Notes under the pieces: generated by a model | What the model saw: the letters and a program-made list of their open reading frames with translations, nothing else | Told to the model about the DNA's origin: nothing | Database searches by the model: none | Position numbers and translations under genes: made by a program | Assembly (NCBI RefSeq): GCF_006494775.1 | Contig: NZ_CP041146.1 | Coordinates: 3,658,001-3,722,000, forward strand | Source of the DNA: Nocardioides humi | GTDB lineage: Bacteria; Actinomycetota; Actinomycetes; Propionibacteriales; Nocardioidaceae | DNA: 64,000 nucleotides | Reading direction: 5' to 3' | Part shown: in pieces, positions 8,515 to 60,644 of the stretch | Layout: every line of letters begins with the position of its first letter | How positions within the stretch are numbered: position 1 is the stretch's first letter

Positions 8515-8535
8515 GGTACGCCGCGCCCCCGCGAA
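8486..8535. terminator. Perfect 21-bp hairpin, bidirectional terminator
   Basis: Arms 8486-8506 and 8515-8535 are perfectly complementary with an eight-base loop (8507-8514) that contains the TGA stop of the AraC gene. It lies between two convergent genes and would end transcription of both. Its position argues that the monooxygenase gene should also stop close by, near 8555. Confidence 0.75.
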
Positions 8536-8554
8536 GGGGAGTCCGGTCGGGAGG

Positions 8555-17165: not shown

Positions 17166-17190
17166 GTCCCTCCAGGAAGAGAGCAGCGTC

Positions 17191-18519: not shown

Positions 18520-18544
18520 GCGGCGCGGACGAAGGAGAACGCCG

Positions 18545-42773: not shown

Positions 42774-43256
42774 TCAAGCGATGCGGCCGAACTCGCCGCC
42801 ACAGTGGATCAACGGCCGCACCCGGTCGATGTGCTCGTAGGACACGACGGTGCCGATGAAGATCGTGTGGTCCCCGCCGGGGAGTTCCTCCGCGACGTCG
42901 CAGACGATGGACGCGATGGCGTCGTGGAGGACGGGGACACCCTGCTCCTCGTCGTACGAGACGCCGGCGAACCGGTCCCCCCGAGAGGCGAACTGCCGCG
43001 CCAGGTCCTGGTGCTCCTCGCCGAGCACGTTGACGCCGAAGCGACCGTGCTCGGAGATGGCCGAGCGGGTGAACAGGTGGTTCCCGACGCAGACGAGCAG
43101 CTGCAGCGGGTCCAGGGACAGGGGAGTCACCGAGCTCGCCGTCATGCCGACCGGCGCGTCGGCGACCCGGGTGGTGATGATCGACACGCCCGACGGCAGG
43201 CGGGACATCGTGGCGCGGAAGGCGACGGCTTCGTCGATGAGTCCGAGGGCAGTCAC
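42774..43256 (-). CDS. Flavin reductase, likely partner of HpaB copy 3
   Basis: A 160-residue FMN-binding split-barrel reductase (MSRLPSGVSIITTRVADAPVG, LSLDPLQLLVCVGNHLF, GGDHTIFIGTVVS). It would supply reduced flavin to an HpaB enzyme. GTG 43256 is chosen because CAGGAG lies six bases upstream; the open frame extends 21 codons further but without a good site. It is the first gene of a pair with the LuxR regulator. A TCACAT-N9-ATGTGA palindrome is about 90 bases upstream. Confidence 0.85.
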   Translation of the reverse strand: MTALGLIDEAVAFRATMSRLPSGVSIITTRVADAPVGMTASSVTPLSLDPLQLLVCVGNHLFTRSAISEHGRFGVNVLGEEHQDLARQFASRGDRFAGVSYDEEQGVPVLHDAIASIVCDVAEELPGGDHTIFIGTVVSYEHIDRVRPLIHCGGEFGRIA

Positions 43257-45237: not shown

Positions 45238-46119
45238 ATGGCACGACCAGGTGCACAAAGTGCGGAGCTCAACGCAGTCATCAGGAATTCCAGCATCGAG
45301 ATCATTCCGCTGAAGGGCGCCGACCAGGTGGTCGCCGACCTGCCGGTCGACCGGCCGCTGACGATCACGTGCTCGCCGAGGTTCGGCCTGGAGCGCACCC
45401 TGCAGCACGTCGCCCGCGCGCGGCGGGCCGGCCACCGCGTCGTCCCCCATCTCGCCGCTCGCATGGTCGGGGGCCGTCAGGAGCTGAGGTCGTTCGTGCG
45501 CCAGGTCGTCGACCTGGGTGTGGACGACCTGTACGTCGTCGGCGGTGACGGCGACCTGCCGGTCGGTCCCTACGGCGACGCGCTCGGGATCCTGCAGGAC
45601 CTCGCCGAGTTCGACCACGGCCTGCGCCGCCTCGGTGTCGGGTGCTATCCCGAGGGCCACCCGAAGATCGACGACGGCGTGCTGCACGAGGCCCTGCTCC
45701 GGAAGCAGGAGCACGCCGACTACATGGTCAGCCAGCTCTGCTTCGACTCCGGGGCTGTGGCCCGCTGGCTCAGATCCGCCCGCGCGGGCGGTGTCAGGCT
45801 GCCCCTGCGGCTCGGCGTCGCCGCTCCGTTGCAGACGCGGAAGCTGATCGAGCTCTCCCTGAGGATCGGGGTCGGCCAATCGGTTCGGTTCCTCTCGAAG
45901 CAGCACGGCATCGTCGGGAACCTCCTCCTCGGGCGTGCCTACGAGCCCCTCGACCTCGTCACCGAGCTGAGCCGCGAGATCTCCTTCGCCCAGGACGGTG
46001 TCGAGGGCCTGCACCTCTTCTCGTTCAACCAGGTCGAGCCGACCCTCGGGTGGCTCTCCCGCGCCGGCGAGCTCTGCGATCCGGATGCGCCCGACGACTC
46101 CAGCATCGCCATCAACTGA
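45238..46119 (+). CDS. metF: Methylenetetrahydrofolate reductase (MetF-like) of the O-demethylation operon
   Basis: A 293-residue FAD-dependent TIM-barrel protein of the methylenetetrahydrofolate reductase family. Markers are SIEIIPLKGADQ, LTITCSPRFGLERTLQHV, VVPHLAARMV, LYVVGGDGD and MVSQLCFD. Beside a methyltransferase-type O-demethylase it most likely runs in the oxidative direction, turning 5-methyl-THF into 5,10-methylene-THF, as proposed for metF in the ligM locus of Sphingobium. It starts the metF-O-demethylase-purU operon (gaps of 31 and 36 bases). No methionine synthesis gene is nearby, which supports the catabolic role. Confidence 0.85.
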   Translation: MARPGAQSAELNAVIRNSSIEIIPLKGADQVVADLPVDRPLTITCSPRFGLERTLQHVARARRAGHRVVPHLAARMVGGRQELRSFVRQVVDLGVDDLYVVGGDGDLPVGPYGDALGILQDLAEFDHGLRRLGVGCYPEGHPKIDDGVLHEALLRKQEHADYMVSQLCFDSGAVARWLRSARAGGVRLPLRLGVAAPLQTRKLIELSLRIGVGQSVRFLSKQHGIVGNLLLGRAYEPLDLVTELSREISFAQDGVEGLHLFSFNQVEPTLGWLSRAGELCDPDAPDDSSIAIN

Positions 46120-46150
46120 CCAACGACATCAGAAAGCACGTGCGAACGAA

Positions 46151-47497
46151 ATGAACCTCGAAGACAAGATCAAGCAGGCCGGAAATGTCGCCCGGATGCT
46201 CCGGAACGCGCCGCAGGGACCCTATGTCTTTCCGATGCAGTCGGAATACACCAACTGGCGCGACGAGCAGAGGGCGTGGAGCGAGACCGCGGTCATGTTC
46301 GACCAGTCGCTGCATATGACCGATATCCATTTCAAAGGCCCCGACGTATTGCGACTGATGTCCGACATCGGTGTGAACGGATTCAAGAACTTCGGACGGA
46401 ACAAGGCCAAGCAGCTGATCGCCTGCAACTACGACGGGTACTTCCTGGGCGATGCGATCCTGTTCGCGTTCGAGGAGGACCACTACAGTCTGGTCGGCCG
46501 CCCGGTCGCACCGAACTGGGCGGCGTTCCAGGCGGAGACCGGCGACTACGACGTCGAGGTGACCCGCGACGAGCGCTCGGTCGCGAACGACGGTCGGCGG
46601 CTCTCCTTCCGCTTCCAGCTGAACGGTCCGGCCACGCACAAGATCGTGGAGCGGGCCGTGGGCTCCCCGCTGCCCACGATCAGATTCTTCGCGATGGGCG
46701 AGATCGAGATCGCCGGCGTCCCGATCCGTGCCCTCAACCACACGATGGCCGGTGTGCCCGGCCTGGAGTTCACCGGGCTCGAGCTGGTCGGCCCCTCGGA
46801 CGGTGCTGAGCGCGTGCGCGAGGCACTGATCGCGGCGGGGGAGGAGTTCGGCCTCCGGCTGGGTGGCGCCCGGGCGTATCCCTCGACCGCGATCGAGTCG
46901 GGCTGGATCGCGGCGCCGGTGCCTGCCATCTACACCGGCGACGCGATGCGGGCCTTCCGTGAGTGGCTCCCCGGCAACGGGTTCGAGGCCAACGCGTCGA
47001 TCGCCGGCAGCTTCGTGTCCGACGACATCGAGGACTACTACGTGACGCCGTGGGACCTCGGCTACGGCCGGGTGATCCGGTTCGACCACGACTTCATCGG
47101 CCGTGCGGCGCTCGAGAAGATGGTCGACCAGCCGCATCGGCAGAAGGTCTGGCTGCGGTGGAACGACCGCGACGTCGCGGACCTCATCGCGGACAGCCTC
47201 TTCGGCTCGGGCCCGCACACCAAGTACCTCGAGATGCCGGTCTCGAACTATGGCACCAACTCCTACGACCAGGTCCTCGCGGACGGCCGGCTGATCGGCT
47301 TCTCGGCCAGCTCGGGATACACGGTCAACGTCGGGGGCTGGTCCTCGCACGGGATGGTTGCCGAGGATGACGCCGTCGACGGGCGGGAGGTCACCGTCCT
47401 GATCGGTGAGGAGAACGGCGGCTCCGCCAAGCCGACGGTCGAACGCCACGTACAGCGAGCGATCCGCGCGACGCTCCGAACCAGTCCGTTGGTGTGA
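46151..47497 (+). CDS. Tetrahydrofolate-dependent aryl-methyl-ether O-demethylase, LigM/DesA-like (GcvT fold)
   Basis: A 448-residue GcvT-fold protein. It resembles LigM and DesA, which move the methyl group of vanillate, 3-O-methylgallate or syringate to THF. Visible blocks are AVMFDQSLHMTDIHFKGPD, NYDGYFLGDAILF, TPWDLGYGRVIRFDHDFIG and the C-terminal barrel with SNYGTNSYDQ. LigM is about 470 residues, close to this length. There is no gcvP or gcvH, and metF and purU flank it, which argues against glycine cleavage. The exact methoxy substrate cannot be read. It begins 31 bases after metF. Confidence 0.8.
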   Translation: MNLEDKIKQAGNVARMLRNAPQGPYVFPMQSEYTNWRDEQRAWSETAVMFDQSLHMTDIHFKGPDVLRLMSDIGVNGFKNFGRNKAKQLIACNYDGYFLGDAILFAFEEDHYSLVGRPVAPNWAAFQAETGDYDVEVTRDERSVANDGRRLSFRFQLNGPATHKIVERAVGSPLPTIRFFAMGEIEIAGVPIRALNHTMAGVPGLEFTGLELVGPSDGAERVREALIAAGEEFGLRLGGARAYPSTAIESGWIAAPVPAIYTGDAMRAFREWLPGNGFEANASIAGSFVSDDIEDYYVTPWDLGYGRVIRFDHDFIGRAALEKMVDQPHRQKVWLRWNDRDVADLIADSLFGSGPHTKYLEMPVSNYGTNSYDQVLADGRLIGFSASSGYTVNVGGWSSHGMVAEDDAVDGREVTVLIGEENGGSAKPTVERHVQRAIRATLRTSPLV

Positions 47498-47533
47498 CAG
47501 CGGTGACGAGTGCGAGCACGGGATGTGTCGGCC

Positions 47534-48391
47534 ATGACTGATGCGAAGGTCGTCTTGACCCTCACCTGTCCCGACCAGCCGGGCATCGTGTACGCGGTCT
47601 CGCGGTTCCTCCACGAGAGCGGCTGTTCGATCGTCGAGAGCCAGCAGTTCCTCGACCGGCAGTCGGGCAACTTCTTCATGCGGGTCGAGCTCGAGGTACT
47701 CGACGACGCCGTCAGCGCCGAGTCCCTTCGAGAGGGCTTCGCCACCGTCCGCCGGGCGTACTCGATGGAGGACCAGTTCCTCGACGCTGCCCGGCGACAG
47801 CGGGTCCTGGTGATGGCGAGCACGGCGGGCCACTGCTTGAACGATCTCCTCTTCCGGACCTTCAACGGTGGCCTGGACGTCGAGATCTCCGCTGTCGTGT
47901 CCAACCACGACGAGCTCCGCTACCTCGCCGACACCTACGGAGTGCCGTACCACCACATCCCGGTGGACGCGCAGACCAAGGTGCAGGCGGAGCGCGAGCT
48001 GCTCGACCTCGTGGTCGATCTCGATGTCGACCTCGTGGTCCTGGCGCGGTACATGCAGGTGCTGTCCGGCGACCTGTGCAAGGCACTCGAAGGGAGGGTG
48101 ATCAACATCCACCACTCGATGCTGCCGAGCTTCAAAGGGGCTCGACCCTATGACCAGGCCCATGCCCGGGGCGTGAAGCTGATCGGCGCGACCGCGCACT
48201 ACGTGACTGCCGACCTCGATGAAGGCCCGATCATCGAGCAGGAGGTGGCTCGGGTCGATCACGGGATGACCGCGGCGCAGGTGCGCACCCTGGGCCGGGA
48301 CGTCGAGTGCCTCGCCCTGTCTCGGGCCGTTCGCTGGCACACCGAGAACCGTGTGTTGCTGGACGGCAGCAGGACCGTGGTCTTCCCGTGA
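47534..48391 (+). CDS. purU: Formyltetrahydrofolate deformylase
   Basis: A 285-residue protein with an N-terminal ACT domain (LTLTCPDQPGIVYAVSRFLHE) and a formyltransferase-like catalytic domain (LVMASTAGHCLNDLLFR, then INIHHSMLPSFKGARPYDQA). It hydrolyses 10-formyl-THF to formate and THF, which frees the cofactor for another demethylation round. It starts 36 bases after the O-demethylase in the same operon. The Asn-His-Asp catalytic set appears complete (NIHHS, and ADLDEGPII). A short hairpin at 48398-48413 follows its stop. Confidence 0.9.
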   Translation: MTDAKVVLTLTCPDQPGIVYAVSRFLHESGCSIVESQQFLDRQSGNFFMRVELEVLDDAVSAESLREGFATVRRAYSMEDQFLDAARRQRVLVMASTAGHCLNDLLFRTFNGGLDVEISAVVSNHDELRYLADTYGVPYHHIPVDAQTKVQAERELLDLVVDLDVDLVVLARYMQVLSGDLCKALEGRVINIHHSMLPSFKGARPYDQAHARGVKLIGATAHYVTADLDEGPIIEQEVARVDHGMTAAQVRTLGRDVECLALSRAVRWHTENRVLLDGSRTVVFP

Positions 48392-48501
48392 TCGAGGCCG
48401 CCCTGCGGGGCGGAGCATCTCCGTCGCCGCGGTGACCCAGCAGCGAGACCGGGACGATCCTCGCGGTGGGCGGCATATCCTCTACCGGGGACAGGCAGGT
48501 C

Positions 48502-51500
48502 ATGACGATGGACGATCGGAAGCCGAGCGGACCGTACGTGATCCGCCGGAAGATCATGTCTCCGCGGTTGGGCGACAGCGTTGCCGACCGCGCTCGGGTG
48601 GTCTCGCACCTCGACGACCTCCTGGCCGAACGGCATGTCGTGCTCGTGCAGGCGGCGGCGGGCAGCGGGAAGACCACGGCGGTGGCCATGGCGACCCGGC
48701 GCCTCGAGCGCCCGGTGGCCTGGTTGTCGTTCGATGGGACGGAGCTGGCACCGGGACGCCTCCTGGCCTACCTCGAGGAGGCGGTGACCATCCCGCTGAC
48801 CAGCGCGCCCCGTATGGTCGCCGGCGCCCTGGAAGACGGGCTGCTCCCGGCCGAGGTGGCCGGCGTGCTGGCCGAGAGCTGGTCCGGCACGGGCCTGGTC
48901 CTCGTCTGCGACAACGTCGAGAAGGTGGCCCGCGACGCTGGCTCGTGGGCCACTCTGTCGTCCTTGGTCAGCTACCTGCCGGCCGACGTGAGCCTCGTCC
49001 TGATCTCCCGCATCCGGCTACCCGTCGACGCGACCGCGTTGCTCGATCGGAGAGTCGTCGAGGTCGGCCAGGACGTTCTCGACTTCGACCGGGACGAGGC
49101 CGAGCAGGCCCTGCGCCGCCGGGGCGACGTCCCGGGAGACCTCGACGTCCTGCTCGGGCTGACGCATGGCTGGGTGGCCGGCGTCCTGTTCGAGGGCGAG
49201 CGGGCGGAGCGCCCGGACGCGGGGCGGTCCGTCGAGTTCGAGAGCTACCTCTCTGCGGAGGTCCTCGGCCCGGCATCGGCGCCCTTGAGGGGCTTTCTCG
49301 CCCGGACCAGCATCCTCCCGGAGGTCTCGACGTCCAGCGCCCTGGCCTTGGGGGAGGAGGAGGCGCCGCGCATGCTGGCGGCGCTCGAGGAGATCCACCT
49401 CCCGGCGTGGTGGTCGGCGGACCGCAGCCGATTCGTCATGTATCCGCAGGTTCGCGAGTTCCTCGAGGTCGAGCTCGTCAGGACCGAGCCGGCCGAGTCT
49501 GTTCGCCGGGTCCGGCGCGCGCACGCTGACCTGCTTGCCCGCGAGGGCAGGCTGGAGGAGGCGGTCGACGCACTGCTCGAGCTCGGCGAGACCGAGCTCG
49601 CCTGGCAGCGCGCGGCCCAGGCGCTGCCCAGCCTGGTGGCGCGGATGGACTTCACGTCGGCTGCGCGGTGGCTCGACGAGCTGGACGTCGTCAGCCGGAC
49701 GCCGACGGCGGAGGTCGGTGCGGTGGTGCTGCGCGTCTCGTTCGCGCTCGAGCAGTGTGGCCGCGGCAACGCGCTGCTCGAGGCCCACGGTTTCGACTGG
49801 CTTCCGGGACCCGGCGCCCCGTTCGCCGAGGAAGCGCTGCTGCTCGCAGCATGGTGCCGGTGGCACGCGGGAGAGCTGGCCGAGGCGCGTGCTCTGGCGG
49901 ACAGGCTGCCGCCTGGTCGTGCTCGGGAGACCGCCGAGAACCTGATCGCACTCTCGGACGGAAGTGCTCCGCCGTTCCCCGACTTCTCCTCGACCCGTTC
50001 CGAGACCGTGGACACGCTGTTGATGCGGATCGGCTACTACCGAGGTCGCCTGCGCGAGCTCGAACGAAGGTCGACCACCGGCGACGGGACCCCGGCGCTC
50101 GGCGTCCCGTGGGTCATCGCCGGCCTCAGGGCCAAGGGCCGACTCGACGAGGCCATGGAGCTCTACGACGTGCTTCGCGGCTCATGGCAGCCCCCCTGGC
50201 TGCATGCGTTCGACGCCGTCGACCTCATGATCGACCTCGGCCGACGCGACGAGGCCTGGGCCGCCCTGACCAGGGGAAGTCGTCTGATCGCCGAGACCGG
50301 CTCGAAGATGTACCGGATCATCGGACACCTCAACGAGGCGAAGCTGAGCCTGCGCCTGCATCGCGACGCCGAGGCAGCTCGTCGAGCACTGGCCGACGCC
50401 GAGGACGACGGTGCCTTGGAGCACGCGTTCAGCCGCGAGCTCTCCCAGCTCTGGCGTGGCTTCTCCTATCTGTTGGAGGATCGCGACGTCGAGGCACGCG
50501 CGGAGCTGGCTGCGTGCGTCGACTCGATGCAGTCCGGCGACCGTCGACTCGAGTTGGCCACGGCCGCCATCTACCTCGCCGAGGCGTGCTGGCGGATCGG
50601 CGACGAGGAGGCATCCGACGCGGCTGCCGAGATGGCGCTGGCCGAGGCGACGACCGGCGGCTCGCAGCACCTGCTCCTCACCGCGCTGCACGATGTGCCG
50701 GCGGTGGCCGTCCGGGCTGCCGATGCGTCGCCCACGCGCCTGTCCCGGTGGCACGAGCTGACGGCGATGTTGTCGGACCAGGGGTCGCTCCGCGTGACGG
50801 CGCGCGCGCCGCGGTTGCTGCTCGAGGAGTTCGGCGACCCCGTCCTCACCGTCGACGGTGAGCCGGTACTGATTCGGCTGAGCAAGAGCATCGAGCTGCT
50901 CAGCTATCTGATCGATGCCCGGCGGGAGGTGAGTCGGCGGGAGCTGTTGGGCCAGCTCTTCGAGAGCAGCAACGACGCGGCCGGCCGAAGCTATCTCCGA
51001 CAGGCCCTCTACCGCTTGCGGGAGGTGCTGCCCGAGGAGCTGATGCCCCGTCAGGAAGGCGAGATCCTCTCGATGAAGAACCCGGACCTGGTCTGCGGCA
51101 CGACGCAGGTCGTGCTGGACTCGCTCGTCCAGGCGGATCGGCAGGACGACGAGGTGCGTCTTCGCAGGATGGTCGAGGTACTGACCCACGCCGCTCGCGG
51201 CCCCTATTTGGCGACCCTGAACAGCCAGTGGGTCGAGGCACGGCGAGTCGAGATCGGCGAGCGCGTCACGAGCGGACGGATCGACGCCGCCAGGCTCGCC
51301 TTCCGGCTCAGCCGCTATCGGGAGGGCCGGCAGTTGGTCGAGACCGTCCTCCGAGAGAGCCCGCATCGGGAGCAGGCCTGGCAGCTCGCCATCTCGCTCG
51401 CCCATGCCAGCGGAAGCGACGACGCGGTCCTCGCCCTCTACCAACGCTACGTCTCGGCCATGCGTGGACTCGGCGTGGCGCCGTCGGCAGAGGTGCGCCG

Positions 51501-51525
51501 ACTGGTCACCCAGCTCCGGCGCTGA
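48502..51525 (+). CDS. Large regulator: MalT-like ATPase region plus C-terminal SARP/BTAD domain, copy 2
   Basis: A 1007-residue paralogue of the gene at 24519 with an intact N-terminus (YVIRRKIMSPRLGDSVADR), a P-loop (QAAAGSGKTTAVAMATRRL, Lys57), VLVCDNVEKV, a long helical repeat region, and a C-terminal winged helix with BTAD (SIELLSYLIDARREVSRREL, SYLRQALYRLREVLPEELM). ATG 48502 is the preferred start; ATG 48508 is an alternative. It follows the O-demethylation operon by 110 bases on the same strand. The SARP-like domain suggests it binds short direct repeats such as those at 45083-45131. It probably activates the second catabolic block. Confidence 0.85.
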   Translation: MTMDDRKPSGPYVIRRKIMSPRLGDSVADRARVVSHLDDLLAERHVVLVQAAAGSGKTTAVAMATRRLERPVAWLSFDGTELAPGRLLAYLEEAVTIPLTSAPRMVAGALEDGLLPAEVAGVLAESWSGTGLVLVCDNVEKVARDAGSWATLSSLVSYLPADVSLVLISRIRLPVDATALLDRRVVEVGQDVLDFDRDEAEQALRRRGDVPGDLDVLLGLTHGWVAGVLFEGERAERPDAGRSVEFESYLSAEVLGPASAPLRGFLARTSILPEVSTSSALALGEEEAPRMLAALEEIHLPAWWSADRSRFVMYPQVREFLEVELVRTEPAESVRRVRRAHADLLAREGRLEEAVDALLELGETELAWQRAAQALPSLVARMDFTSAARWLDELDVVSRTPTAEVGAVVLRVSFALEQCGRGNALLEAHGFDWLPGPGAPFAEEALLLAAWCRWHAGELAEARALADRLPPGRARETAENLIALSDGSAPPFPDFSSTRSETVDTLLMRIGYYRGRLRELERRSTTGDGTPALGVPWVIAGLRAKGRLDEAMELYDVLRGSWQPPWLHAFDAVDLMIDLGRRDEAWAALTRGSRLIAETGSKMYRIIGHLNEAKLSLRLHRDAEAARRALADAEDDGALEHAFSRELSQLWRGFSYLLEDRDVEARAELAACVDSMQSGDRRLELATAAIYLAEACWRIGDEEASDAAAEMALAEATTGGSQHLLLTALHDVPAVAVRAADASPTRLSRWHELTAMLSDQGSLRVTARAPRLLLEEFGDPVLTVDGEPVLIRLSKSIELLSYLIDARREVSRRELLGQLFESSNDAAGRSYLRQALYRLREVLPEELMPRQEGEILSMKNPDLVCGTTQVVLDSLVQADRQDDEVRLRRMVEVLTHAARGPYLATLNSQWVEARRVEIGERVTSGRIDAARLAFRLSRYREGRQLVETVLRESPHREQAWQLAISLAHASGSDDAVLALYQRYVSAMRGLGVAPSAEVRRLVTQLRR

Positions 51526-51537
51526 AAAAGCGCCTAC

Positions 51538-51557
51538 TTGCGCAATCGACTGCGCAA
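51538..51557. promoter_or_regulatory. Candidate LacI-type operator, distal
   Basis: TTGCGCA-N6-TGCGCAA is a perfect inverted repeat 13 bases after the regulator's stop codon. The same sequence recurs at 51692-51711 with one change, 154 bases downstream. Two operators this far apart could allow DNA looping by a LacI-family tetramer. Confidence 0.55.
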
Positions 51558-51662
51558 ACACCGGAGGGACCTGCGCCCTCTGTTCTCGGCGAAGAGGATG
51601 CGTAAAGCCGCGCGGAATCGGGTCGTTTGCCCGAACTGGGCGTGGAGAGGCGAAATGAACCC

Positions 51663-51711
51663 TTGACACACCTGGATCCGGGGCGCAATAATTGCGCAAT
51701 CGAATGCACAA
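51663..51711 (+). promoter_or_regulatory. Promoter of cupin copy 2 overlapped by palindromic operators
   Basis: TTGACA (51663-51668) and AATAAT (51687-51692) are 18 bases apart, a good vegetative promoter. GCGCAAT-A-ATTGCGC (51683-51697) covers the -10 box, and TTGCGCAATCGAATGCACAA (51692-51711) follows directly. The LacI gene at 52661 lies one gene downstream and is the obvious repressor. Confidence 0.65.
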
Positions 51712-51748
51712 GTCGAGCGCACTGAGCGCTCAGGAGGAAACGAGCGGA

Positions 51749-52615
51749 ATGACGTATCACATCTCCCGCGCAGCGGAACGGGTCTTTCACGAGGTCAAGG
51801 AGTTCCCAGGGCTCAGCGAGGCCGTGATGGTGGGGGAGGAGCACGGGTCCCACCACATGGAGGTGTCGTTGCGGAAGCTGGCGCCCGGAGCGTCCATGCC
51901 GTGGTACCGGAGCCCTTTCGAGGAGTCGTTCGTGGTTCGTGGAGGCTCGGGCACCGTCTCGATCGTCGGTCTGGAGTACGACATCGCCGTCGACGACTAC
52001 GCGGTCGCGCCGCCGGCGCTGCCGCACACGCTCACCGCGGGTGACGACGGCCTGGAGCTCTTCTGGGTGAAGTCTCCGAGGCCACCGGGCTATGACGGCG
52101 CTCGGAACTTCATCAGCGGCCCGCCGATCATCGGAGAGAAGCTGGGACGTCCGTCGGAGACCGATCCACGCCACCGCTGGGCCGGCCACTTCGATGACGC
52201 CGACATGGCGCCGGTCGGTGATCTGAACATGCCCGGCTACCACGGCCCCTGCATCAAGAACATCTCGATCCGCATGATGGTCGATCAACTTCTCGGGGCC
52301 CATCAGCACACGGTCTTCATGGCGAAGATCGCCCAGGGCATGGGACCCGGACGCGCCGCGTCGGTGCACTACCACCCGTTCGAGGAGATCTACTTCTACA
52401 CCCAGGGTGGGATGCACGGCTGGCTTGACGGAAATCACGAGCGAATGACGACCGGGGACCTCGTGTGGGTCGGCACCGGCAGCACGCATGGCTTCGTGAA
52501 TGATGAGAACGAGGTCGACGCACGGTGGATCGAGGTCCAGTCGCCCGTCCCGCCGGTCTCGGACGCGTTCTACTTCCCCGACAACTGGCGCGACCTGCCA
52601 GAGCACACTGAGTAG
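51749..52615 (+). CDS. Double-cupin protein, copy 2, with degenerate N-terminal site
   Basis: A 288-residue paralogue of the cupin at 20052. The C-terminal cupin keeps its metal motif (SVHYHPFEEIYFYTQGG, GTGSTHGFV). In the N-terminal cupin the His-x-His pair is lost: PWYRSPFEESFVVRGG stands where copy 1 has GHLHPFEES, while the later His (ALPHTLTAG) remains. Only one metal centre is therefore expected. It starts with GGAGGAAACGAG upstream and has its own promoter with LacI-type operators. A dioxygenase role is possible but unproven. Confidence 0.75.
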   Translation: MTYHISRAAERVFHEVKEFPGLSEAVMVGEEHGSHHMEVSLRKLAPGASMPWYRSPFEESFVVRGGSGTVSIVGLEYDIAVDDYAVAPPALPHTLTAGDDGLELFWVKSPRPPGYDGARNFISGPPIIGEKLGRPSETDPRHRWAGHFDDADMAPVGDLNMPGYHGPCIKNISIRMMVDQLLGAHQHTVFMAKIAQGMGPGRAASVHYHPFEEIYFYTQGGMHGWLDGNHERMTTGDLVWVGTGSTHGFVNDENEVDARWIEVQSPVPPVSDAFYFPDNWRDLPEHTE

Positions 52616-52660
52616 GGCCGCTGTGGCCTACGAAGACCCTCAACCCTAGGAGTTGCCCTG

Positions 52661-53680
52661 ATGGCTTCGGGACGTGTACCGAGACTCGAGGACGTGGCTC
52701 GGTTGGCGGGAGTTCACCCTTCCACCGCGTCCCGAAGTCTCAGCCAGGAGCAGTCCGGGCGGATCGGCGCCAAGACGCGGGAGCGTGTCCTGGCGGCCGC
52801 ACGTGAGTTGGGGTACACGCCGGACCTGACAGCGGCGAGTCTGCGGACGGGCAGAACCATGACGATCGGCGTGGTGATCCCCGACTTCAGCAACCCCATC
52901 TGGGCGTCGCTCCTGGCCGGCCTCGGCGAGACCCTGCAGGAGCGCGACTACACGCCGGTGATCATCGAGACCAAGGACGATCGACGACGGTTCGATCGTG
53001 CTCTGGAGATCCTGACGGATCGACGGGTGGACGGCATGATCAACGCGGCGGTGCGGCTCACCGACAAGAAGCGGCTGACTGCTTTCGTCGCCAGGACACC
53101 GACCGTCCTCGCCGGTCGTGACCTGCCCGGCCTGGACGTGCCGAAGGTGCTCGTCGATGACGTCAGGGGCGGCGAGCTGGCCGTCTCCCACCTGGTCCAG
53201 CGTGGACATCGGAGCATCGTCCAGATCTGCGGTCCTGGTTCCGTGGGCCCCTTCAAGAGCAGGGCGGAAGGGGCGCAGGCGGTCGTGGAGAGGTCGGGCG
53301 ATTCCGTCGCACTCCACAGTCATGTCGTCGACCAGCCGACGGTCGACGAAGCCGATCGAGTCATGTCCGCAGCCCTCGCGGCCGGCCCCGCGTTCACGTC
53401 GGTGTTCGCCCACAACGACCTGATGGCCATCGGCGCCCTGCAGGCGATCCGGCGGGCAGGGATGCGCTGTCCCGACGATGTCTCGGTCGTCGGCTACAAC
53501 GACAACCCGCTCAGCCAGCATCTCGCACCCTCCCTCACGACGATCTCGCTGCCGTTCGTCCAGACCGGCCGTACCGCCGCGGACACGCTGCTGTCGAAGC
53601 TCCTTCACAATGACCCTCCGGTGGTCACGACCCTCCAACCCAGTCTCATCGTCCGTGACTCGACAGCTGCCGCACGATGA
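52661..53680 (+). CDS. LacI-family transcriptional regulator
   Basis: A 339-residue regulator with the LacI helix-turn-helix and hinge (RLEDVARLAGVHPSTASRSL, RVLAAARELGYTPDLTAASL) and a periplasmic-binding-protein-like inducer domain (IGVVIPDFSNPIWASLLAG, DDVSVVGYNDNPLSQHL). It probably represses the upstream cupin gene and itself through the TTGCGCA palindromes at 51538 and 51683-51711. The inducer may be an aromatic intermediate, not a sugar, given the setting (inference). Confidence 0.85.
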   Translation: MASGRVPRLEDVARLAGVHPSTASRSLSQEQSGRIGAKTRERVLAAARELGYTPDLTAASLRTGRTMTIGVVIPDFSNPIWASLLAGLGETLQERDYTPVIIETKDDRRRFDRALEILTDRRVDGMINAAVRLTDKKRLTAFVARTPTVLAGRDLPGLDVPKVLVDDVRGGELAVSHLVQRGHRSIVQICGPGSVGPFKSRAEGAQAVVERSGDSVALHSHVVDQPTVDEADRVMSAALAAGPAFTSVFAHNDLMAIGALQAIRRAGMRCPDDVSVVGYNDNPLSQHLAPSLTTISLPFVQTGRTAADTLLSKLLHNDPPVVTTLQPSLIVRDSTAAAR

Positions 53681-53760
53681 CAGGCGAGCAGACCATGCCT
53701 TCCTGTCCCCGATAGCGGCGCGCGGCTCCCGAGGCGAGCTGAGGAGAGCCGAGATCGCCC

Positions 53761-53796
53761 GACCCTGGACGCACCATCCCTTCGCGTCCCAGGGTC
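53761..53796 (+). terminator. Hairpin between lacI and the metallo-hydrolase operon
   Basis: GACCCTGGACGC (53761-53772) pairs with GCGTCCCAGGGTC (53784-53796) with one bulged base and an 11-base loop. It lies 80 bases after the lacI stop and 85 bases before the next gene. It may terminate lacI. Confidence 0.45.
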
Positions 53797-53881
53797 TGCC
53801 ATCGACGGCCCGCGTCTGCCGCGCGCGACGCGGGTCCACCATCCATCGCGGCCCGCCGGGCCGCGCCACGAGGAGACAGAG

Positions 53882-54868
53882 ATGAACGTTCCTGGAGGAT
53901 TCGACCTGCCGTTGGTTCCCGATGGCGCCCGCGGGCCGGAGGTCCCCGCCTCGGGCTACCTGGTCGACGAGGTGACCGGTGGCATCCATTGGATCACCGA
54001 CGGCGGCTACCAGTGCGCGTTCGTCGTGCACGACCACGGTGTCGTGGCGATCGACGCGCCCCCATGCCTCGGGAGCCTGGTCACGCGAGCGATCCGGGAC
54101 GTGACGGACAAGCCGATCACCCACGTCGTCTACTCGCACTTCCACGGCGACCACATCGGCGCGGTCGACCAGTTCCCGAGCGGGGCTGTCCGGGTCGCGC
54201 ACCAGGACACGTGGGGGAAGCTGAAGGAGGCCGGTGACCCGGCGCGAAGGCTCCCGGACGTGACGTTCGGGGACTCACACCGCCTCGAGGTCGGTGGGCA
54301 GGTCCTGGACCTCGTCTACCGCGGCGACAACCATGCACCGGGCAACATCTTCATCCACGCACCGCAGCACCGCGTGCTGATGCTCGTCGACGTCATCTAC
54401 CCGGGTTGGGTGCCGTTCACCAACATCGCGCAGTCGAAGAACATCCCAGGGTTCATGGCGCACCACGACCACGCGCTCGAGTTCGACTTCGACACCATGA
54501 TCACCGGACACCTCACGCGGCTCGGCACGCGTGAGGACGTCGAGATCCAACGCGAGTACATGCACGACGTCCGTGACGCCGCACAGCATGCGCTGGAGAT
54601 CACCGCGGAGAAGCGCGACGTCGCCCGCGCGGAGGTGGGGACCGAGCACATCTACCGCTACTTCAAGACCATGTACGAGGCCGCGGCGGCGGAGGCTGCG
54701 AAGCCGGTCCTCGACAAGTGGCTCGGTCGCCTCGGAGGTGTGGACACCCTGGGCGTCAACCACACGCTGACGATGTATCACAGCCTCCGTCTCGATGAGA
54801 ACGCCCAACCATCGGTCGTCTTCTTCCCGCCCGCCGCTGCCGGCGGCTGCGTCGACCACAACCACTGA
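53882..54868 (+). CDS. MBL-fold metallo-hydrolase
   Basis: A 328-residue metallo-beta-lactamase-fold protein with the metal motif SHFHGDHIGAVDQF, then HAPGNIFIHAPQHRVLMLVD (His and Asp ligands) and TGHLTRLG for the last His. Such enzymes hydrolyse esters, lactones or thioesters. In this cluster a lactone or ester ring-cleavage product is a reasonable substrate, but this is inference. It opens the operon MBL-VOC-folD-folP-pabBA, with the VOC gene 13 bases downstream and GAGGAGACAGAG before its ATG. Confidence 0.8.
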   Translation: MNVPGGFDLPLVPDGARGPEVPASGYLVDEVTGGIHWITDGGYQCAFVVHDHGVVAIDAPPCLGSLVTRAIRDVTDKPITHVVYSHFHGDHIGAVDQFPSGAVRVAHQDTWGKLKEAGDPARRLPDVTFGDSHRLEVGGQVLDLVYRGDNHAPGNIFIHAPQHRVLMLVDVIYPGWVPFTNIAQSKNIPGFMAHHDHALEFDFDTMITGHLTRLGTREDVEIQREYMHDVRDAAQHALEITAEKRDVARAEVGTEHIYRYFKTMYEAAAAEAAKPVLDKWLGRLGGVDTLGVNHTLTMYHSLRLDENAQPSVVFFPPAAAGGCVDHNH

Positions 54869-54881
54869 GAAGGGAGACGCC

Positions 54882-55382
54882 ATGCCCACGTTCGGCATCA
54901 AGCGCGTCGATCACATCGGCATCACCGTTCCCGACCTCGAGCAGGCTCGTGAGTTCTTCGAGCAGGTCCTCGGCTTCGAGTACCTCTACCGGCTCGGGCC
55001 GCTCCGCGGCGACGGCACCTGGATGAGTGACCACCTCAACGTGCCGGACGATGCCGTCGCCCCCCGCATCTACTTCTTCCGGGTGGGGGAGCAGGCGATG
55101 CTCGAGGTCTTCGAGTACCAGGCCCCTGCGCAGCGGCGCGACGTCCCGCTGAACAGCGACGTCGGTGGCCACCACATCGCGTTCTATGTCGACGACCTCG
55201 ACGCTGCGGCCGACGAGCTGCGGGCGCGCGGCGTGCGGGTGCTCGCGGGTCCGACCGCGAGCAAGGGACCGCACGAGGGCCAGCGCTGGGTGTACTTCGT
55301 GTCGCCCTGGGGCCTCAACTGCGAGCTGGTGTCGTACCCGAACGGCAAGGCGTACCTCAAGACGCCCGAAGCATTCGACTGA
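54882..55382 (+). CDS. VOC-family metalloenzyme (glyoxalase/extradiol dioxygenase fold), copy 2
   Basis: A 166-residue paralogue of the VOC protein at 14338. Likely metal ligands are His in KRVDHIGITVPD, His in DVGGHHIAFYVDD and Glu in LNCELVSYPNG. The block GPTASKGPHEGQRWVYFVSP is shared with copy 1 almost residue for residue. It may cleave or isomerise a product of the HpaB reaction. It has an AAGGGAG ribosome binding site and is the second gene of the operon that also contains folD, folP and pabBA. Confidence 0.8.
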   Translation: MPTFGIKRVDHIGITVPDLEQAREFFEQVLGFEYLYRLGPLRGDGTWMSDHLNVPDDAVAPRIYFFRVGEQAMLEVFEYQAPAQRRDVPLNSDVGGHHIAFYVDDLDAAADELRARGVRVLAGPTASKGPHEGQRWVYFVSPWGLNCELVSYPNGKAYLKTPEAFD

Positions 55383-55485
55383 GCCAGCCCGCCTGTGGCG
55401 CCGGCATCGAGGTGTCACGGGCGGCACCACGGCCCGCGTGGAGGACATCGTCCGTGCACTCGGCTGACGGTTGAGGAAGAAGGAG

Positions 55486-56334
55486 ATGGATGTGACCAGC
55501 CAGGTCCTCGACGGCGTTGCGGTCGCGAAGGAGATCCTGAAGGGGGTGTCCCGTCGGGCCTCGGTCCTGCGGGACGCGGGTCGGGCGCCGCGCTTGGCGA
55601 CGGTGCTGGTCGGAGATGACGACGCGTCGAAGACCTATGTGCGGATGAAGGTCAACAGGTGCTCCGAGGTAGGGATCGAGTCCGTCCGGATCGACCTCGA
55701 CGCGGAGATCTCGACGCCTGTTCTCGTGGCGCAGATCGAGGCGCTGTCGGCCGATCCCGCGATCGACGGCATTCTGCTCCAGCATCCCGTGCCCGGCCAC
55801 ATCGACGAGCGCGCCGCATTCGAGGCGATCGATCCAGCCAAGGACGTCGACGGCGTGACGCGGACGTCGTTCGCTGCGATGGCGCTGGGCAACCCGGGCT
55901 TCCAGTCCTGCACGCCGGGCGGGATCCTCCGTCTGCTCGACGCGTACGAGATACCGCTCGAAGGGAGGCATGCGGTGGTGGTGGGACGCAGCCACATCCT
56001 CGGACTGCCGATGGGGATGCTTCTCCTCGGGAGGGACGCGACGGTCACGTACTGCCATTCCCGTACTCGCGGGCTGGCCGAGATCCTCGGTCGTGCCGAC
56101 GTCGTGGTCGCAGCGGTGGGAACGCCCGAGCTGGTTCGTGCCCGCTGGCTCAAGCCGGGAGCGGTGGTCGTCGACGCCGGATACAGCGCCGGCGACCGCG
56201 GTGACGTGGAGCAGCCGGCCGCCCGCGAGGTTGCCGGATGGCTGTCGCCCGTCCCCGGCGGGGTCGGTCCGATGACCATCGCCATGCTGCTCGAGCAGAC
56301 GGTGACGGCGGCGGAACGCCGCGCTGGCGGCTGA
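55486..56334 (+). CDS. folD: Bifunctional methylene-THF dehydrogenase / methenyl-THF cyclohydrolase
   Basis: A 282-residue FolD. The catalytic Lys lies in KTYVRMKVNRCSEVGI (near residue 55). GILLQHPVPGHID, PAKDVDGVTRTSF, CTPGGILRLLDAY and VVVGRSHILGLPMGMLLL (NADP-binding Rossmann part) follow, ending with VPGGVGPMTIAMLLEQTV. It oxidises 5,10-methylene-THF to 10-formyl-THF, linking MetF to PurU. It lies in the MBL-VOC operon, 104 bases after VOC, and is followed by folP after seven bases. A housekeeping folD is expected elsewhere, so this is likely a pathway copy. Confidence 0.9.
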   Translation: MDVTSQVLDGVAVAKEILKGVSRRASVLRDAGRAPRLATVLVGDDDASKTYVRMKVNRCSEVGIESVRIDLDAEISTPVLVAQIEALSADPAIDGILLQHPVPGHIDERAAFEAIDPAKDVDGVTRTSFAAMALGNPGFQSCTPGGILRLLDAYEIPLEGRHAVVVGRSHILGLPMGMLLLGRDATVTYCHSRTRGLAEILGRADVVVAAVGTPELVRARWLKPGAVVVDAGYSAGDRGDVEQPAAREVAGWLSPVPGGVGPMTIAMLLEQTVTAAERRAGG

Positions 56335-56341
56335 CGCCGCC

Positions 56342-57157
56342 ATGCGCGCCCTGGCAATCCGCCCGCAGATCGTGGGGATCGTCAACGTGACGACGGACTC
56401 CTTCTCGGACGGCGGCCTCTACGTCGATCGGGAGAACGCGGTAGCGCACGCCCTGCGGCTCGTCGCAGAGGGGGCGGACATCGTCGACATCGGTGGCGAG
56501 TCGACGCGCCCGGGAGCGGCGCGCGTTCCCGAGGAGGTCGAGCTGAGCAGGGTCATCCCGGTGGTGGGCGAGCTTGCCCGCGCAGGAGTGAAGGTCAGCA
56601 TCGACACCATGCGGTCCCGAGTCGCCGAGCTCGCCATCGAGGCCGGGGCAGCCGTCGTGAACGACGTGAGTGGGGGACTCGCCGACCGGCGCATGGCGAG
56701 CGTCGTGCGAGACGGCGAGGTGCTCTTCGTCGTGACTCACTGGAGGGGGCACAGTGAGCGGATGCTGCGGCGCGCGCGGTACAGCGATGTCGTCGCCGAG
56801 GTGCGGAACGAGCTCCGGATGCGCAGGGACGCGATCGTGGCCCAGGGTGTGGAGCCGGATCTGGTCGTCCTCGATCCCGGGATCGGGTTCGCCAAGACGA
56901 GCGAGCAGAGCTGGACACTGCTGGGCGCGTTGCCTTCCCTCCGTGGCCTGGGCCACCCCCTCATGGTCGGCGTCTCGCGGAAGTCGCTCCTCCGAGCGAT
57001 CGGCGACGACCTCGACCTGGCCGAGCGCGACCAGGCGTCAGCGCTCCTCGCCGCCCTGGTCGCGGCGCACGCGTCGTACCTCCGGGTCCACGACGTCGCG
57101 TCGACGGTCCTCGCGCTGCGGGTGGTCGACCGGCTGATCGGAGACCCGGCTCGATGA
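56342..57157 (+). CDS. folP: Dihydropteroate synthase
   Basis: A 271-residue DHPS with all main motifs: IVGIVNVTTDSFSDGG, VDIGGESTRPGA, VSIDTMRS, VVNDVSGG, LDPGIGFAKT, VGVSRKSLLRA and YLRVHDV. It joins p-aminobenzoate to dihydropterin pyrophosphate, a committed step of folate synthesis. Its place between folD and pabBA in a catabolic operon is unusual. A sulfonamide-resistance (sul) role is unlikely because there is no integron or mobile context. Its stop overlaps the pabB start (ATGA), so the two are translationally coupled. Confidence 0.9.
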   Translation: MRALAIRPQIVGIVNVTTDSFSDGGLYVDRENAVAHALRLVAEGADIVDIGGESTRPGAARVPEEVELSRVIPVVGELARAGVKVSIDTMRSRVAELAIEAGAAVVNDVSGGLADRRMASVVRDGEVLFVVTHWRGHSERMLRRARYSDVVAEVRNELRMRRDAIVAQGVEPDLVVLDPGIGFAKTSEQSWTLLGALPSLRGLGHPLMVGVSRKSLLRAIGDDLDLAERDQASALLAALVAAHASYLRVHDVASTVLALRVVDRLIGDPAR

Positions 57158-59543
57158 CGGATCCGGATGTCGTGCGGTGGCCACTGGACGTCGGGCTGAA
57201 GCCCACCGAGGTGTTGCGTGCGCTCGGTCCCCGTGATCGGCTCGTGGCGCTGTTCGGCGATTGGGCGTCGGGTGGAGCCGTGATCGCCTTCGACCCTCTG
57301 CGTCGGTCGCGATCGCCTGCCGTTCTCGGAACGCTGCCGGACGGCAGGCACATCGGCCAGCGTCCGGCGCAGCCGGTGAGCGGCGCCTCCACCGGCGTCG
57401 TGGCCGGAGGCTGGTTCGGGATCCTGGGCTACCAGCTCGGCGCGGTGCTCGAGGACCTCCCCGCGAAGCCCGAGCGTGACGCCCCACGGGCGGAATGCGA
57501 TCTGGCGTTCTACGACCAGGTGCTGAGGTACGTCGCCAAGACGGGCGAGTGGTACTTCGAGGCGCTCGTGCTGGAGGACGAAGGTCGCCTGCGGCGTCAG
57601 TACGCGGCGGTCGTGGAGGCGCTGACCGCGCGACCAGCGCGTGCGCGACGGGGGTACGTCTTCGGGGATTTCCACACGACTCCCTCCGTCGCAGCGCATC
57701 GGGAGGCCGTCTCCCGGGTCATCGAGCACATCGCGGCCGGCGACATCTTCCAGGCCAATGCGTGCCTGCGGCTCGACGCATCCTTCGCCGGTGATCCGCT
57801 GGAGGTCTTCATCTCGGGAGCCGAGGCGCTCCGCCCGGCCTATGCCGCCTTCGTGGACGCGGACGACGGAGCGGTCGCCAGCCTCTCCCCGAGCTCTACC
57901 TGCGGCGCCGTGGCCGCGAGGTGCGAACGGCCCCGATCAAGGGGACCGCGTCGATCGCCTCCGACCCGGCCGACCTGGAGAGCTCGCGGAAGGAGCGGGC
58001 GGAGAACGTCATGATCGTGGACCTCATGCGCAACGATCTCGGCAGGATCTGTGCCCCGGGCACGGTCGAGGTGGAGGACGTGGCCGAGGTCCGCGCGCAG
58101 GCCGGCGTCTGGCACCTGGTCTCTCGGATCCGGGGCGAGATCGCGGACGGCGTGGACGACCGAGCCATCATCGAGGCCACCTTCCCGCCCGGTTCGGTCA
58201 CCGGCGCTCCGAAGATCCGGGCGATGGAGGTGATCGGCTCGGTCGAGACGGCCGCTCGCGAGGTGTACACCGGCGCCATCGGCTGGTCCGGTCCCACGGG
58301 CATGGAGTTCAACGTGGCGATCCGCACCTTCGAGTTCGGCGCCGGTCGGGCCGTTCTCGGAGTCGGTGCAGGCATCGTTGCCGACTCGGTTCCTGACGGA
58401 GAGGTCGACGAGTGCCTCGTCAAGGCGGCCCCTCTCCTCGATGCCGTCGGCGCGAGGTTGGCACCCGACGCGCAGCGAGCATTCGCCGGGCTGAGGTCTT
58501 CTGCCGGGCCTGCGCCGGTGGGATCGCGGACGGTGGGCGCGCCGCGGCTCCTGGACGACGTCGGTGATCGGGGCGAGGGCCGGATCCACGTCCTCGACGA
58601 GCATGTCGTCGTCGACTGGGGTCGCCGTCCCCCATCCGGCGGCGTACGCATCGTGGACCTGCTCCGGCGCTCCGGCCTCCCCGTGGAGATCCGCCCGCTG
58701 GCGGCCGGCGAGAGGTCGCGGGTGAGCGAGGAGTTCGGCTTCGAGCTGCTCGGTCGCTCGGCCGTGCCGGAGGTGCGCTCCCGGCTGGCGGCGGCCGGAC
58801 CGCTCCAGCGCTGGCTGGAGGACGCCGTCGCTCGCGCCGCGCCGACCGACCCGCCGCCGCACCGAGGTGTCGCCGGTCGGACGAGCAGGATCCTGCTCGT
58901 GGACAACTACGACTCCTTCGTGTTCAACGTGGCTCAGTGTCTCCTCGAGCTGGGTGCCCTCGTGGAGGTGGTCCGCAACGATCGGCTCGACGTCGACGCG
59001 CTCGCCCGGTCGACGGGCGAGCGGTGGGACGGGGTGGTGGTGTCGCCCGGCCCCGGCGATCCGAGCGACGCGGGAGCGTGTGTGGAGCTGATCCGCAGGC
59101 TGCCTCCTGCTCTGCCGCTCCTCGGGGTGTGCCTGGGCCACCAGGCGATCGGAGCCGCTTTCGGTGCGCGGATCGTGCGTGCTCCGCGACCGGCGCACGG
59201 TTGCCGGTCGCTCGTTCACCACGACGGTTCAGGGGTGTTCGCCGGCACGGACGGCCCGATCCTGGCGGGTCGCTACCACTCGCTGGTGATCGACGAGGGG
59301 TCTCTCGTCGGCACCGCGCTCGAGGTCACCGCGCGCACACCGTCAGGTCTGGTGATGGGGGTCCGACATCGCGACCGGCCGATCGAAGGCATCCAGTTCC
59401 ACCCGGAGTCGATCCTGACGCCGCGCGGTCGGGACCTGCTCGGTGCGTTCCTCGACCGGGTGCGCGCAGCCCCGACCGGTACGCGGTCGGCTCGGAGCGC
59501 AGCACCGGAGGGTGGAGCGCTTGTCCATGGCGACGTACAGTGA
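57154..59543 (+). pseudogene. pabBA: Fused aminodeoxychorismate synthase (PabB-linker-PabA), frameshifted
   Basis: The first frame (57154 to about 57890) holds the N-terminal PabB/TrpE-like part and breaks at SLSP. The second frame, one base over, continues ELYLRRRGREVRTAPIKGTA, ENVMIVDLMRNDLGRICAPG, PPGSVTGAPKIRAMEV, and then a linker of about 130 residues. A class I glutamine amidotransferase follows (LLVDNYDSFVFNVAQ, GVCLGHQAIGA with the nucleophile Cys, and IQFHPESILT). One extra G at 57890/57891 (CCCCGAG to CCCCGGAG) would restore an enzyme of about 796 residues. It makes aminodeoxychorismate for p-aminobenzoate. pabC is not visible. All catalytic motifs are intact, so a sequencing deletion is likely. 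Confidence 0.8.
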
Positions 59544-59630
59544 CACTGAACTTGTCGGGGCTCGGGGCGGCGCTGCGTCGGATGGCGGCTGGAGGCCGTT
59601 CGTCCTCGTCTCAGGTGAGGGGTGGCCGGC

Positions 59631-60644
59631 ATGGCGGTCGTGCGCGGGGGTTCGTTCCGGGGCTTCTCCGCTGCTGCTCCACTGAGCCGGCATCACGAGA
59701 CCACGGACCCCCGGGTGGCCCGTGACATCGTCTCGACCTTCCTCGCGCCTCATCACCTCACCGTGGCCGAGGGCCGGGAGCGCTTCCGCGCGGTCGGCGA
59801 CCACGTCGAGCTCGGCGCCGTGTCCCTCGCGTATGTCTCCTACGGCACCGAGGTCGTGATCGACCGGGGAGGAAGCCAGGACTATGTGGGTGTCGTGGTG
59901 CCGCTCAGCGGGTCCGTCGTCGTCCGACAGGCCGGTCAGGAGGTCGTCGCGACGAACGGGGGCTCCTTCGCCGCCGTGGCGAGCGAGCCGAACCTCCACA
60001 TGCGGTGGAGCGCTGACAGCCAGGCGCTCGTCCTGCGTGCGCAGACCGGCGCGCTGCGCGCGCTGGCTGACCGGATCGCACCGTACGGCAGGCACGATGC
60101 GCTCACCTTCAGGCCGTCGAGGGTGGTGGGATCCGAGGCTGCCGTGCTGGCCGGACTCACCGAGTTGCTGGTCCACCTCTGTCAGGCCTGCGGGCCACCC
60201 GAGGCGATGCCGGGCCTGATCAGGCGCCATCTGGGTGAACAGGCGCTGGTCGCGATCCTCCTGGCCGTTCCGAACTCCAGCACCGAGCAGCTCCTCGACC
60301 AGACTCCCGGCCTGCGCTCCTCTGTCCGCCGCGTGCTGGACCTGGTCGCGGCCGAGACCGAGGCGACGTACACGGTGAGCGCCCTGGCAACGGCGGCCGG
60401 GGTCGGAGTGCGGGCACTCGAGGTCGCGTTCAGGCGAGATCTGGGTACGACGCCGCATGCGTTCCTCCAGCGCGTGCGCCTCGAGAAGGCGCGACAGGAG
60501 CTGCTGGCGGCCGGTGGGAACCCGGGGACGACGGTGACCGCGGTGGCCGTCCGCTGGGGCTTCTCGAACGTCGGCCGGTTCGCCGGTCTCTACCAGCAGC
60601 ACTTCGGCGTGCTGCCTTCGCAGACGCTCAACCGCCGGGGCTGA
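59631..60644 (+). CDS. AraC-family transcriptional regulator
   Basis: A 337-residue regulator with an AraC_binding_2-type sensory domain and a C-terminal double helix-turn-helix (VSALATAAGVGVRALEVAF, VAVRWGFSNVGRFAGLYQQH). It resembles the AraC gene at 7438 in layout and length. ATG 59631 is preferred because AGGTGAGGGG lies eight bases upstream; GTG 59622 is an alternative. It precedes the MFS gene on the same strand, with direct repeats in the gap. It probably activates the transporter gene and perhaps the pathway. Confidence 0.85.
   Translation: MAVVRGGSFRGFSAAAPLSRHHETTDPRVARDIVSTFLAPHHLTVAEGRERFRAVGDHVELGAVSLAYVSYGTEVVIDRGGSQDYVGVVVPLSGSVVVRQAGQEVVATNGGSFAAVASEPNLHMRWSADSQALVLRAQTGALRALADRIAPYGRHDALTFRPSRVVGSEAAVLAGLTELLVHLCQACGPPEAMPGLIRRHLGEQALVAILLAVPNSSTEQLLDQTPGLRSSVRRVLDLVAAETEATYTVSALATAAGVGVRALEVAFRRDLGTTPHAFLQRVRLEKARQELLAAGGNPGTTVTAVAVRWGFSNVGRFAGLYQQHFGVLPSQTLNRRG

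Follow-up and report, generated by a model that had tools for sequence, protein, structure and literature searches.

When a bacterium moves the methyl groups of aromatic ethers to tetrahydrofolate (THF), where does the methyl carbon go, and where does the carrier come from? The cofactor of THF-dependent demethylases is one that the cell also requires for nucleotides and methionine, and the excerpted text of PMC6021390 calls O-demethylation a key bottleneck in lignin use. Both questions are raised by a gene cluster of Nocardioides humi, whose genome consists of one contig of 6.22 Mb with a GC content of 71.6%. The window, by which we mean the whole stretch of 64,000 nucleotides that was analysed (positions 3,658,001 to 3,722,000 of NZ_CP041146.1; G000:C1:3658001-3722000 in our numbering), carries a short operon in which a putative THF-dependent demethylase gene is enclosed by metF-like and purU genes; a second operon downstream contains folD followed by genes of folate biosynthesis. 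The genes of both operons, as well as those between and directly behind them, lie on the + strand. The gene content and order of this cluster, the kinship of its proteins and its recurrence in relatives were observed directly. We read the locus as a probable THF-dependent aryl O-demethylation module that would carry its own one-carbon (C1) disposal line and part of the line supplying the carrier, and we put the probability of this reading at about 0.55.

The demethylase gene (46151-47497) lies 31 bases behind the metF-like gene (45238-46119; codon use suggests a possible later start, up to 45328) and is followed by purU (47510-48391) after 36 bases if purU starts at ATG 47534, or 12 bases if it starts at GTG 47510. 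A tight operon with gaps of 31 and 36 bases and a LigM/DesA-like product of the middle gene had been claimed in a preliminary description of this DNA, and both claims were borne out. With the two NCBIfam models that fit it best, the demethylase scored 546.8 bits (DesA, NF047633; curated cut-off 800 bits) and 500.2 bits (LigM, NF047885; curated cut-off 580 bits); since both cut-offs were missed, it belongs to a separate subgroup. The GcvT models gave 59.9 bits (NF001567; cut-off 300) and 32.6 bits (TIGR00528; cut-off 235.85), and neither cut-off was reached. LigM structures match residues 2-445 (E-value 1.5e-125, 423 bits), and by this full-length similarity, together with its grouping apart from GcvT in a quick tree, the protein is a member of the wider LigM/DesA-type family.

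Besides 97 family rows, the tree contained three further proteins of the N. humi genome with a GCV_T domain, which lie on long branches. The window demethylase falls within a group of 43 actinobacterial LigM/DesA-type rows (96%), a separate group of 40 rows (99%) includes 36 from Pseudomonadota, and the three GCV_T-domain proteins lie far from the window demethylase. Clustering with GcvT or with sarcosine oxidases, a doubt raised in the preliminary description, was checked in this tree; the protein groups with LigM/DesA-type rows, and model scores and tree together rule out a GcvT or sarcosine-oxidase identity. The proposed alignment of active-site residues was also made. In the column that we take to be that of the catalytic Tyr247 of LigM, tyrosine is present in 95 of the 97 family rows, including both demethylases of N. 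humi (Y243 in the window protein), and the three GCV_T proteins have R, R and E. A second column, presumably that of LigM Arg122, holds R in 65/97 rows; the window demethylase has R there and the second demethylase of the genome has T, so the two enzymes may differ in substrate. From its family, the window protein is predicted to move the methyl group of an aryl methyl ether to THF. Only one of 36 Nocardioides genomes contains a relative of it (E-value 1e-60, 37% identity), which makes the island an accessory element in Nocardioides.

The metF-like protein is under the curated MetF cut-offs (Pfam, 23.9 versus 24; TIGR00676, 41.7 versus 293.7 bits). Its residues 9-273 match the solved methylene-THF reductase 7xg9 in PDB with an E-value of 2.6e-30 (1.8e-32 for the MetF copy of a second cluster described below), and we regard it as a divergent member of the methylene-THF reductase family. 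PurU, the formyl-THF deformylase, is over the TIGR00655 cut-off (340.2 versus 285.95 bits). The folD gene (55471-56334), coding for methylene-THF dehydrogenase/cyclohydrolase with both Pfam domains over cut-off, begins 7.1 kb past purU, in line with the distance of 7 kb given earlier; the genome has three copies in all, and of the other two, one is at 4.54 Mb and one belongs to the second cluster. Formyl-THF synthetase (FTHFS, LigH) has no match in the N. humi genome, which rules out here the LigH/FTHFS-type C1 exit of Sphingobium sp. SYK-6; it was found over cut-off in 5 of the 27 genomes introduced below. The genome contains just two PurU proteins over cut-off, each adjoining one of its only two demethylases. 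Given the lack of FTHFS and this pairing, the methyl carbon most likely exits as formate via PurU.

Going by the families of the four enzymes, the demethylase would convert the methyl ether of a methoxylated aromatic and THF to a phenol and methyl-THF, the MetF-like enzyme, acting in the oxidative sense, would produce methylene-THF, FolD would take this to formyl-THF, and PurU would release formate and free THF. A closed route of this kind had been proposed in the preliminary description. Its chemistry stands as the best reading, and its PurU exit is strengthened by the lack of any FTHFS match and of a third PurU over cut-off.

The supply of the carrier is suggested by genes behind folD that the preliminary description did not contain. 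The second operon opens with genes for a metallo-beta-lactamase-fold protein (53882-54868; profile match, with relatives in 7 of the 79 loci surveyed below) and a VOC (glyoxalase-fold) protein (54882-55382; profile match), which precede folD. Seven bases past folD starts folP (56342-57157), whose product is identified as dihydropteroate synthase (DHPS) by its TIGR01496 score (276.6 versus 162.6 bits), by a match to solved DHPS (E-value 1.1e-71) and by its place in a tree. It overlaps by 4 bases a pabB-pabA fusion, which is present as two overlapping frames, 57154-58014 for the front part of pabB and 57921-59543 for its back part with pabA; an intact single frame with both domains is not present in the window. 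Residues 9-246 of the front part match residues 133-370 of a continuous protein of Nocardioides sp. PD653-B2 (locus L022), and the back part matches that protein from residue 370 on. In Actinomadura meyerae (L042), too, a single continuous protein is matched by both parts, which adjoin at the same residue. The window copy is thus frame-broken or mis-assembled near 57.89 kb.

Acting together, folP and pabBA of the folD operon would provide more dihydropteroate via p-aminobenzoate (PABA), so that the THF pool could match the catabolic flux. Since the window pabBA is frame-broken, the PABA step may rest on other copies, for example on the intact pabB of the second cluster. Another folP, at 3.974 Mb and separated by 6 kb from a gene for GTP cyclohydrolase I, looks like the housekeeping copy. 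No GTP cyclohydrolase I was found within 15 kb of either demethylase of the genome. The GTP cyclohydrolase I at G000:C1:1891452-1891984 is split over two matches, possibly another frame break.

The second cluster, at 2.90-2.91 Mb, was also missing from the preliminary description. One strand carries OsmC, FTCD_C (formiminotransferase-cyclodeaminase fold), folP and an intact pabB; facing them on the opposite strand are purU, folD, the second demethylase gene and metF. The demethylases of the two clusters are 52-53% identical. Genes for a pyridine-nucleotide oxidoreductase and for a protein that matches the N-terminal part of homogentisate dioxygenase lie beyond metF.

Does the arrangement recur? 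We analysed 79 distinct loci, taken from the best 80 of 238 as ranked by likeness to the query alignment, 37 of them actinobacterial and 42 from other bacteria; some sit on short contigs, so that absences there are soft. In the fetched stretches, metF was present in 54 loci, purU in 53 and folD in 35, which shows that the neighbourhood is not due to chance. The actinobacterial loci contain metF in 23 cases, purU in 24, folD in 16, folP in 9 (from eight genera) and pabB in 4; in the other loci the numbers are 31 for metF, 29 for purU, 19 for folD and 3 for pabB. The metF, folD and purU genes occur all together in 32 of the 79 loci (15/37 actinobacterial and 17/42 others), and rarity of this set beside a demethylase is rejected. 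The claim that the complete set is little described in actinobacteria fell on the same count, and is also countered in print by a DesA-like enzyme accompanied by metF and ligH in a Solirubrobacterales genome (excerpts of PMC9296663). The C1 line is ordinary; the unusual part is the presence of carrier-making genes beside the demethylase.

The arrangement is clearest in four relatives. In Nocardia carnea (L032), metF, folD, purU, folP and pabB follow the demethylase and an alpha/beta hydrolase on one strand. The Kribbella locus L037 contains genes for the demethylase, FolD, MetF, PurU, FolP, an FMN reductase, an FAA hydrolase and a VOC protein, with two YCII genes between. Streptomyces coffeae (L095, from the same genome as L024) has FTCD_C, purU, folD, metF, a demethylase gene, pabB, folP, a LigB ring-cleavage dioxygenase gene and another demethylase gene. 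In Actinacidiphila oryziradicis (L023), metF, FTCD_C, folD, purU, the demethylase gene and folP are followed later by GTP cyclohydrolase I beside a transposase fragment. Ring-cleavage-type genes in these relatives (LigB in L095; FAA hydrolase and VOC in L037) fit an aromatic substrate. The FTCD_C protein accompanies several demethylase clusters (L013, at 8468-9555, L106, L023, L027, L035 and L095), together with OsmC in L013 and L106. Local expansions of the demethylase family were also seen, with nine matches in Mycolicibacterium chlorophenolicum (G004; e.g., L019, L026, L036, L038 and L052) and eight in Geodermatophilus sabuli (G009; L025).

The association of folP with demethylases was counted in 27 whole genomes, that of N. 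humi and 26 reached via the loci, in which demethylase matches (79 of 80 rows used) define 60 loci. Of 102 PF00809 rows, 75, including a few fragments, were kept as folP; those left out were open frames of at least 760 aa, regarded as MetH-like, and one of the two pieces of a split pair. Within 10 kb, folP was found near 12/60 demethylase loci, versus 0.60 expected for random places; among these 12, the copy of G010 is a fragment of 34 positions and that of G019 is split over two frames. With the N. humi genome left out, the numbers are 11/58 and 0.58. At 15 kb they are 15/60 and 0.88, and only here is the window folP, at 10.2 kb, counted. Chorismate-binding genes of the pabB family, which also takes in TrpE-type genes (113 of 114 rows used), are near 12/60 loci (0.87 expected), and eight loci have both folP and such a gene nearby. 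The demethylase and chorismate-binding rows omitted are second pieces of genes split at the same place. For GTP cyclohydrolase I, 39 of 42 rows were used, three pieces being omitted. The control family PF00591 (58/58 rows) was near 0/60 loci versus 0.47 expected, a control that is weak by itself. Since the demethylase loci share descent, the cases behind the folP enrichment cannot be counted as independent events.

When 30 folP proteins were placed in a tree, nine cluster copies grouped together, separate from the housekeeping copies (support 84/85). They come from three Mycobacteriaceae, Nocardia, Nocardioides, Kribbella, Actinacidiphila, the genome of L034 (Saccharopolyspora) and the window, whose folP is on a long branch (0.78). 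The copies of L013 and L106 stand together elsewhere, and those of L095 and L073 (the latter not among the 27 genomes) occupy a third place with L104, a copy labelled housekeeping in the tree though it lies 12 kb from a demethylase. A single clade for all 13 cluster copies is rejected by the approximately unbiased test (p 0.0017), so folP must have been recruited by such clusters at least twice. We suggest, tentatively and at somewhat less than even odds, that actinobacterial THF demethylation clusters have at least twice recruited their own PABA/dihydropteroate branch (folP, often pabB or pabBA, and once GTP cyclohydrolase I) and thus make their own carrier. The recruited DHPS may work amid PABA-like aromatic acids, with folate supply partly uncoupled from housekeeping.

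Several observations weigh against a carrier-supplying module. In the window itself, 10.2 kb separate folP from the demethylase gene, the two belong to different operons, and pabB is frame-broken. The six nearest orthologous loci (L016-L021), whose demethylases are 80-85% identical to that of the window, have no folP in the 20.7-21.3 kb fetched; L016 and L019 also have neither metF nor purU there, and the other four have both. None of the 42 non-actinobacterial loci contains folP. For GTP cyclohydrolase I, the pterin entry enzyme, a gene was found near just one of the 60 demethylase loci (0.31 expected), and the group of nine folP proteins is weakly supported, its branch not being starred. The Nocardioides sp. 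PD653-B2 contig with the ortholog L016 also carries the folP-pabBA locus L022, but ca. 45 kb away and beside another demethylase. In view of this and of the missing folP in L016-L021, folP and the demethylase may have come together in the window by a local event.

The alternative that survives best takes these points further and proposes plain O-demethylation with a C1 cycle, folP and pabBA being decaying passengers of an accessory catabolic island with no role here. The broken pabBA frame, the nearest orthologous loci without folP in their fetched DNA and the scarcity of the island in its genus are what one would expect of passengers. Against this, the window folP is intact and over its cut-off; folP and pabB of the second cluster are both intact, pabBA is continuous in L022 and L042, and the folP link recurs in eight genera with at least two origins. 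We consider that folP and pabBA are unlikely to be mere passengers.

A different role for the same genes would be protection rather than supply. An aromatic acid substrate or product that mimics PABA would hinder the housekeeping DHPS, and the cluster would bring a less sensitive FolP and extra PABA. The cluster folP proteins stand mostly apart from the housekeeping ones, as such a role would have it, and the window copy is on its long branch of 0.78, although this length may reflect relaxed selection. It is also the PABA/DHPS branch that was recruited, and GTP cyclohydrolase I only rarely; an aromatic acid would presumably compete with that very branch. Protection as the main function appears improbable to us. 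A demethylenase that opens a methylenedioxy ring and makes methylene-THF directly, on the model of the THF-dependent BrdA and SesA, which are annotated as LigM-type and found in actinobacteria (excerpts of PMC5547118), is thought very unlikely, because BrdA and LigM are only 26.7% identical (same excerpts), whereas the window protein matches LigM over its full length at 423 bits, and because the operon holds a MetF that a methylene unit would not need.

The remaining genes of this part of the window include three regulators, identified by profile matches: a large BTAD-domain, MalT-like protein (48466-51525), far under the cut-off of the MalT model; a LacI-family protein (52661-53680); and an AraC-family protein behind the second operon (59622-60644). 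A two-cupin protein (51749-52615; profile match) is encoded between the first two, and an MFS transporter (60793-62055), whose best match is the aromatic acid/H+ symport family, under the cut-off of that family, follows the third. Promoter and terminator scans gave results at chance level (1 found versus 0.6 in shuffles, and 2 versus 2.9). A promoter-like site with 11/12 consensus bases is located at 51663-51692, 57 bases upstream of the cupin gene that starts at 51749, but such sites are no more numerous than chance would give.

Elsewhere in the window there are three HpaB-family flavin monooxygenase genes (5022-6596 on the - strand, 22736-24256 and 39252-40775), all under the NCBIfam HpaB cut-offs. 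Two of the three FAD-synthetase (FAD_syn) domains of the genome (28108-28944 and 35179-35907) are near HpaB-family genes and flavin reductase genes (27548-28087 and 42774-43256), and are a second type of cofactor-making gene beside its users. Genes for all of E1, E2 and E3 of a 2-oxoacid dehydrogenase complex, the E1 parts being joined in a single protein, occupy 15024-19927 and adjoin a two-cupin gene. An M24-family protein is encoded at 33741-35132; its best NCBIfam match, dimethylsulfoniopropionate (DMSP) lyase DddP, is far under cut-off (106 versus 600 bits). The substrate of the demethylase could not be read from the neighbouring HpaB-family, cupin, metallo-beta-lactamase, VOC, M24 and E1/E2/E3 genes.

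Among known systems, the mabO-folD-purU genes of Arthrobacter plasmid pAO1 likewise place a catabolic THF-linked enzyme beside folD and purU in an actinobacterium; MabO differs in acting on an N-methyl substrate and in being an oxidase rather than a LigM-type enzyme. The LigM/DesA system of SYK-6 shares with the window a strong LigM match and the combination of a THF-dependent O-demethylase with metF in one operon, which in SYK-6 is ligM-metF-ligH (excerpts of PMC6888825). However, SYK-6 uses LigH, whereas in N. humi FTHFS has no match in the genome, the operon includes purU, and folP and pabBA are nearby; the window demethylase is, moreover, under both curated family cut-offs. According to the available excerpts of PMC3621897, plasmid pCMU01 of the chloromethane user Methylobacterium extorquens CM4 similarly combines metF2, folD and purU with a C1-catabolic set, and adds folC2 and cobalamin genes, but its methyltransferases CmuA/CmuB are corrinoid enzymes, not LigM-type, and folP, pabA and pabB are chromosomal, with no plasmid copy. 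DesA-like aminomethyltransferases of thermophilic Actinobacteria (e.g., of the metagenome-assembled genome MB2.64, Solirubrobacterales) also have the methyl-transferring tyrosine, with metF in the genome; there, metF occurs with ligH, and the excerpts of PMC9296663 do not mention folate biosynthesis genes. The BrdA berberine demethylenases belong to the same wider family, are THF-dependent and are also known from Rhodococcus and Arthrobacter, but act on a methylenedioxy substrate and have the low identity to LigM given above (PMC5547118, in excerpt). The dicamba paper PMC9404685 mentions neither metF, folD, dhc, purU and folC nor a gene cluster, and among the papers listed from open-licence PMC text, none was seen to join folP or pab genes to a THF demethylase.

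If the proposed module with its own carrier supply is real, it would tell engineers which extra genes to move together with THF-dependent demethylases. It would also mean that a branch of a vitamin pathway has been recruited into catabolism, which one deletion could test, and it raises the question of whether aromatic acids act as natural antifolates.

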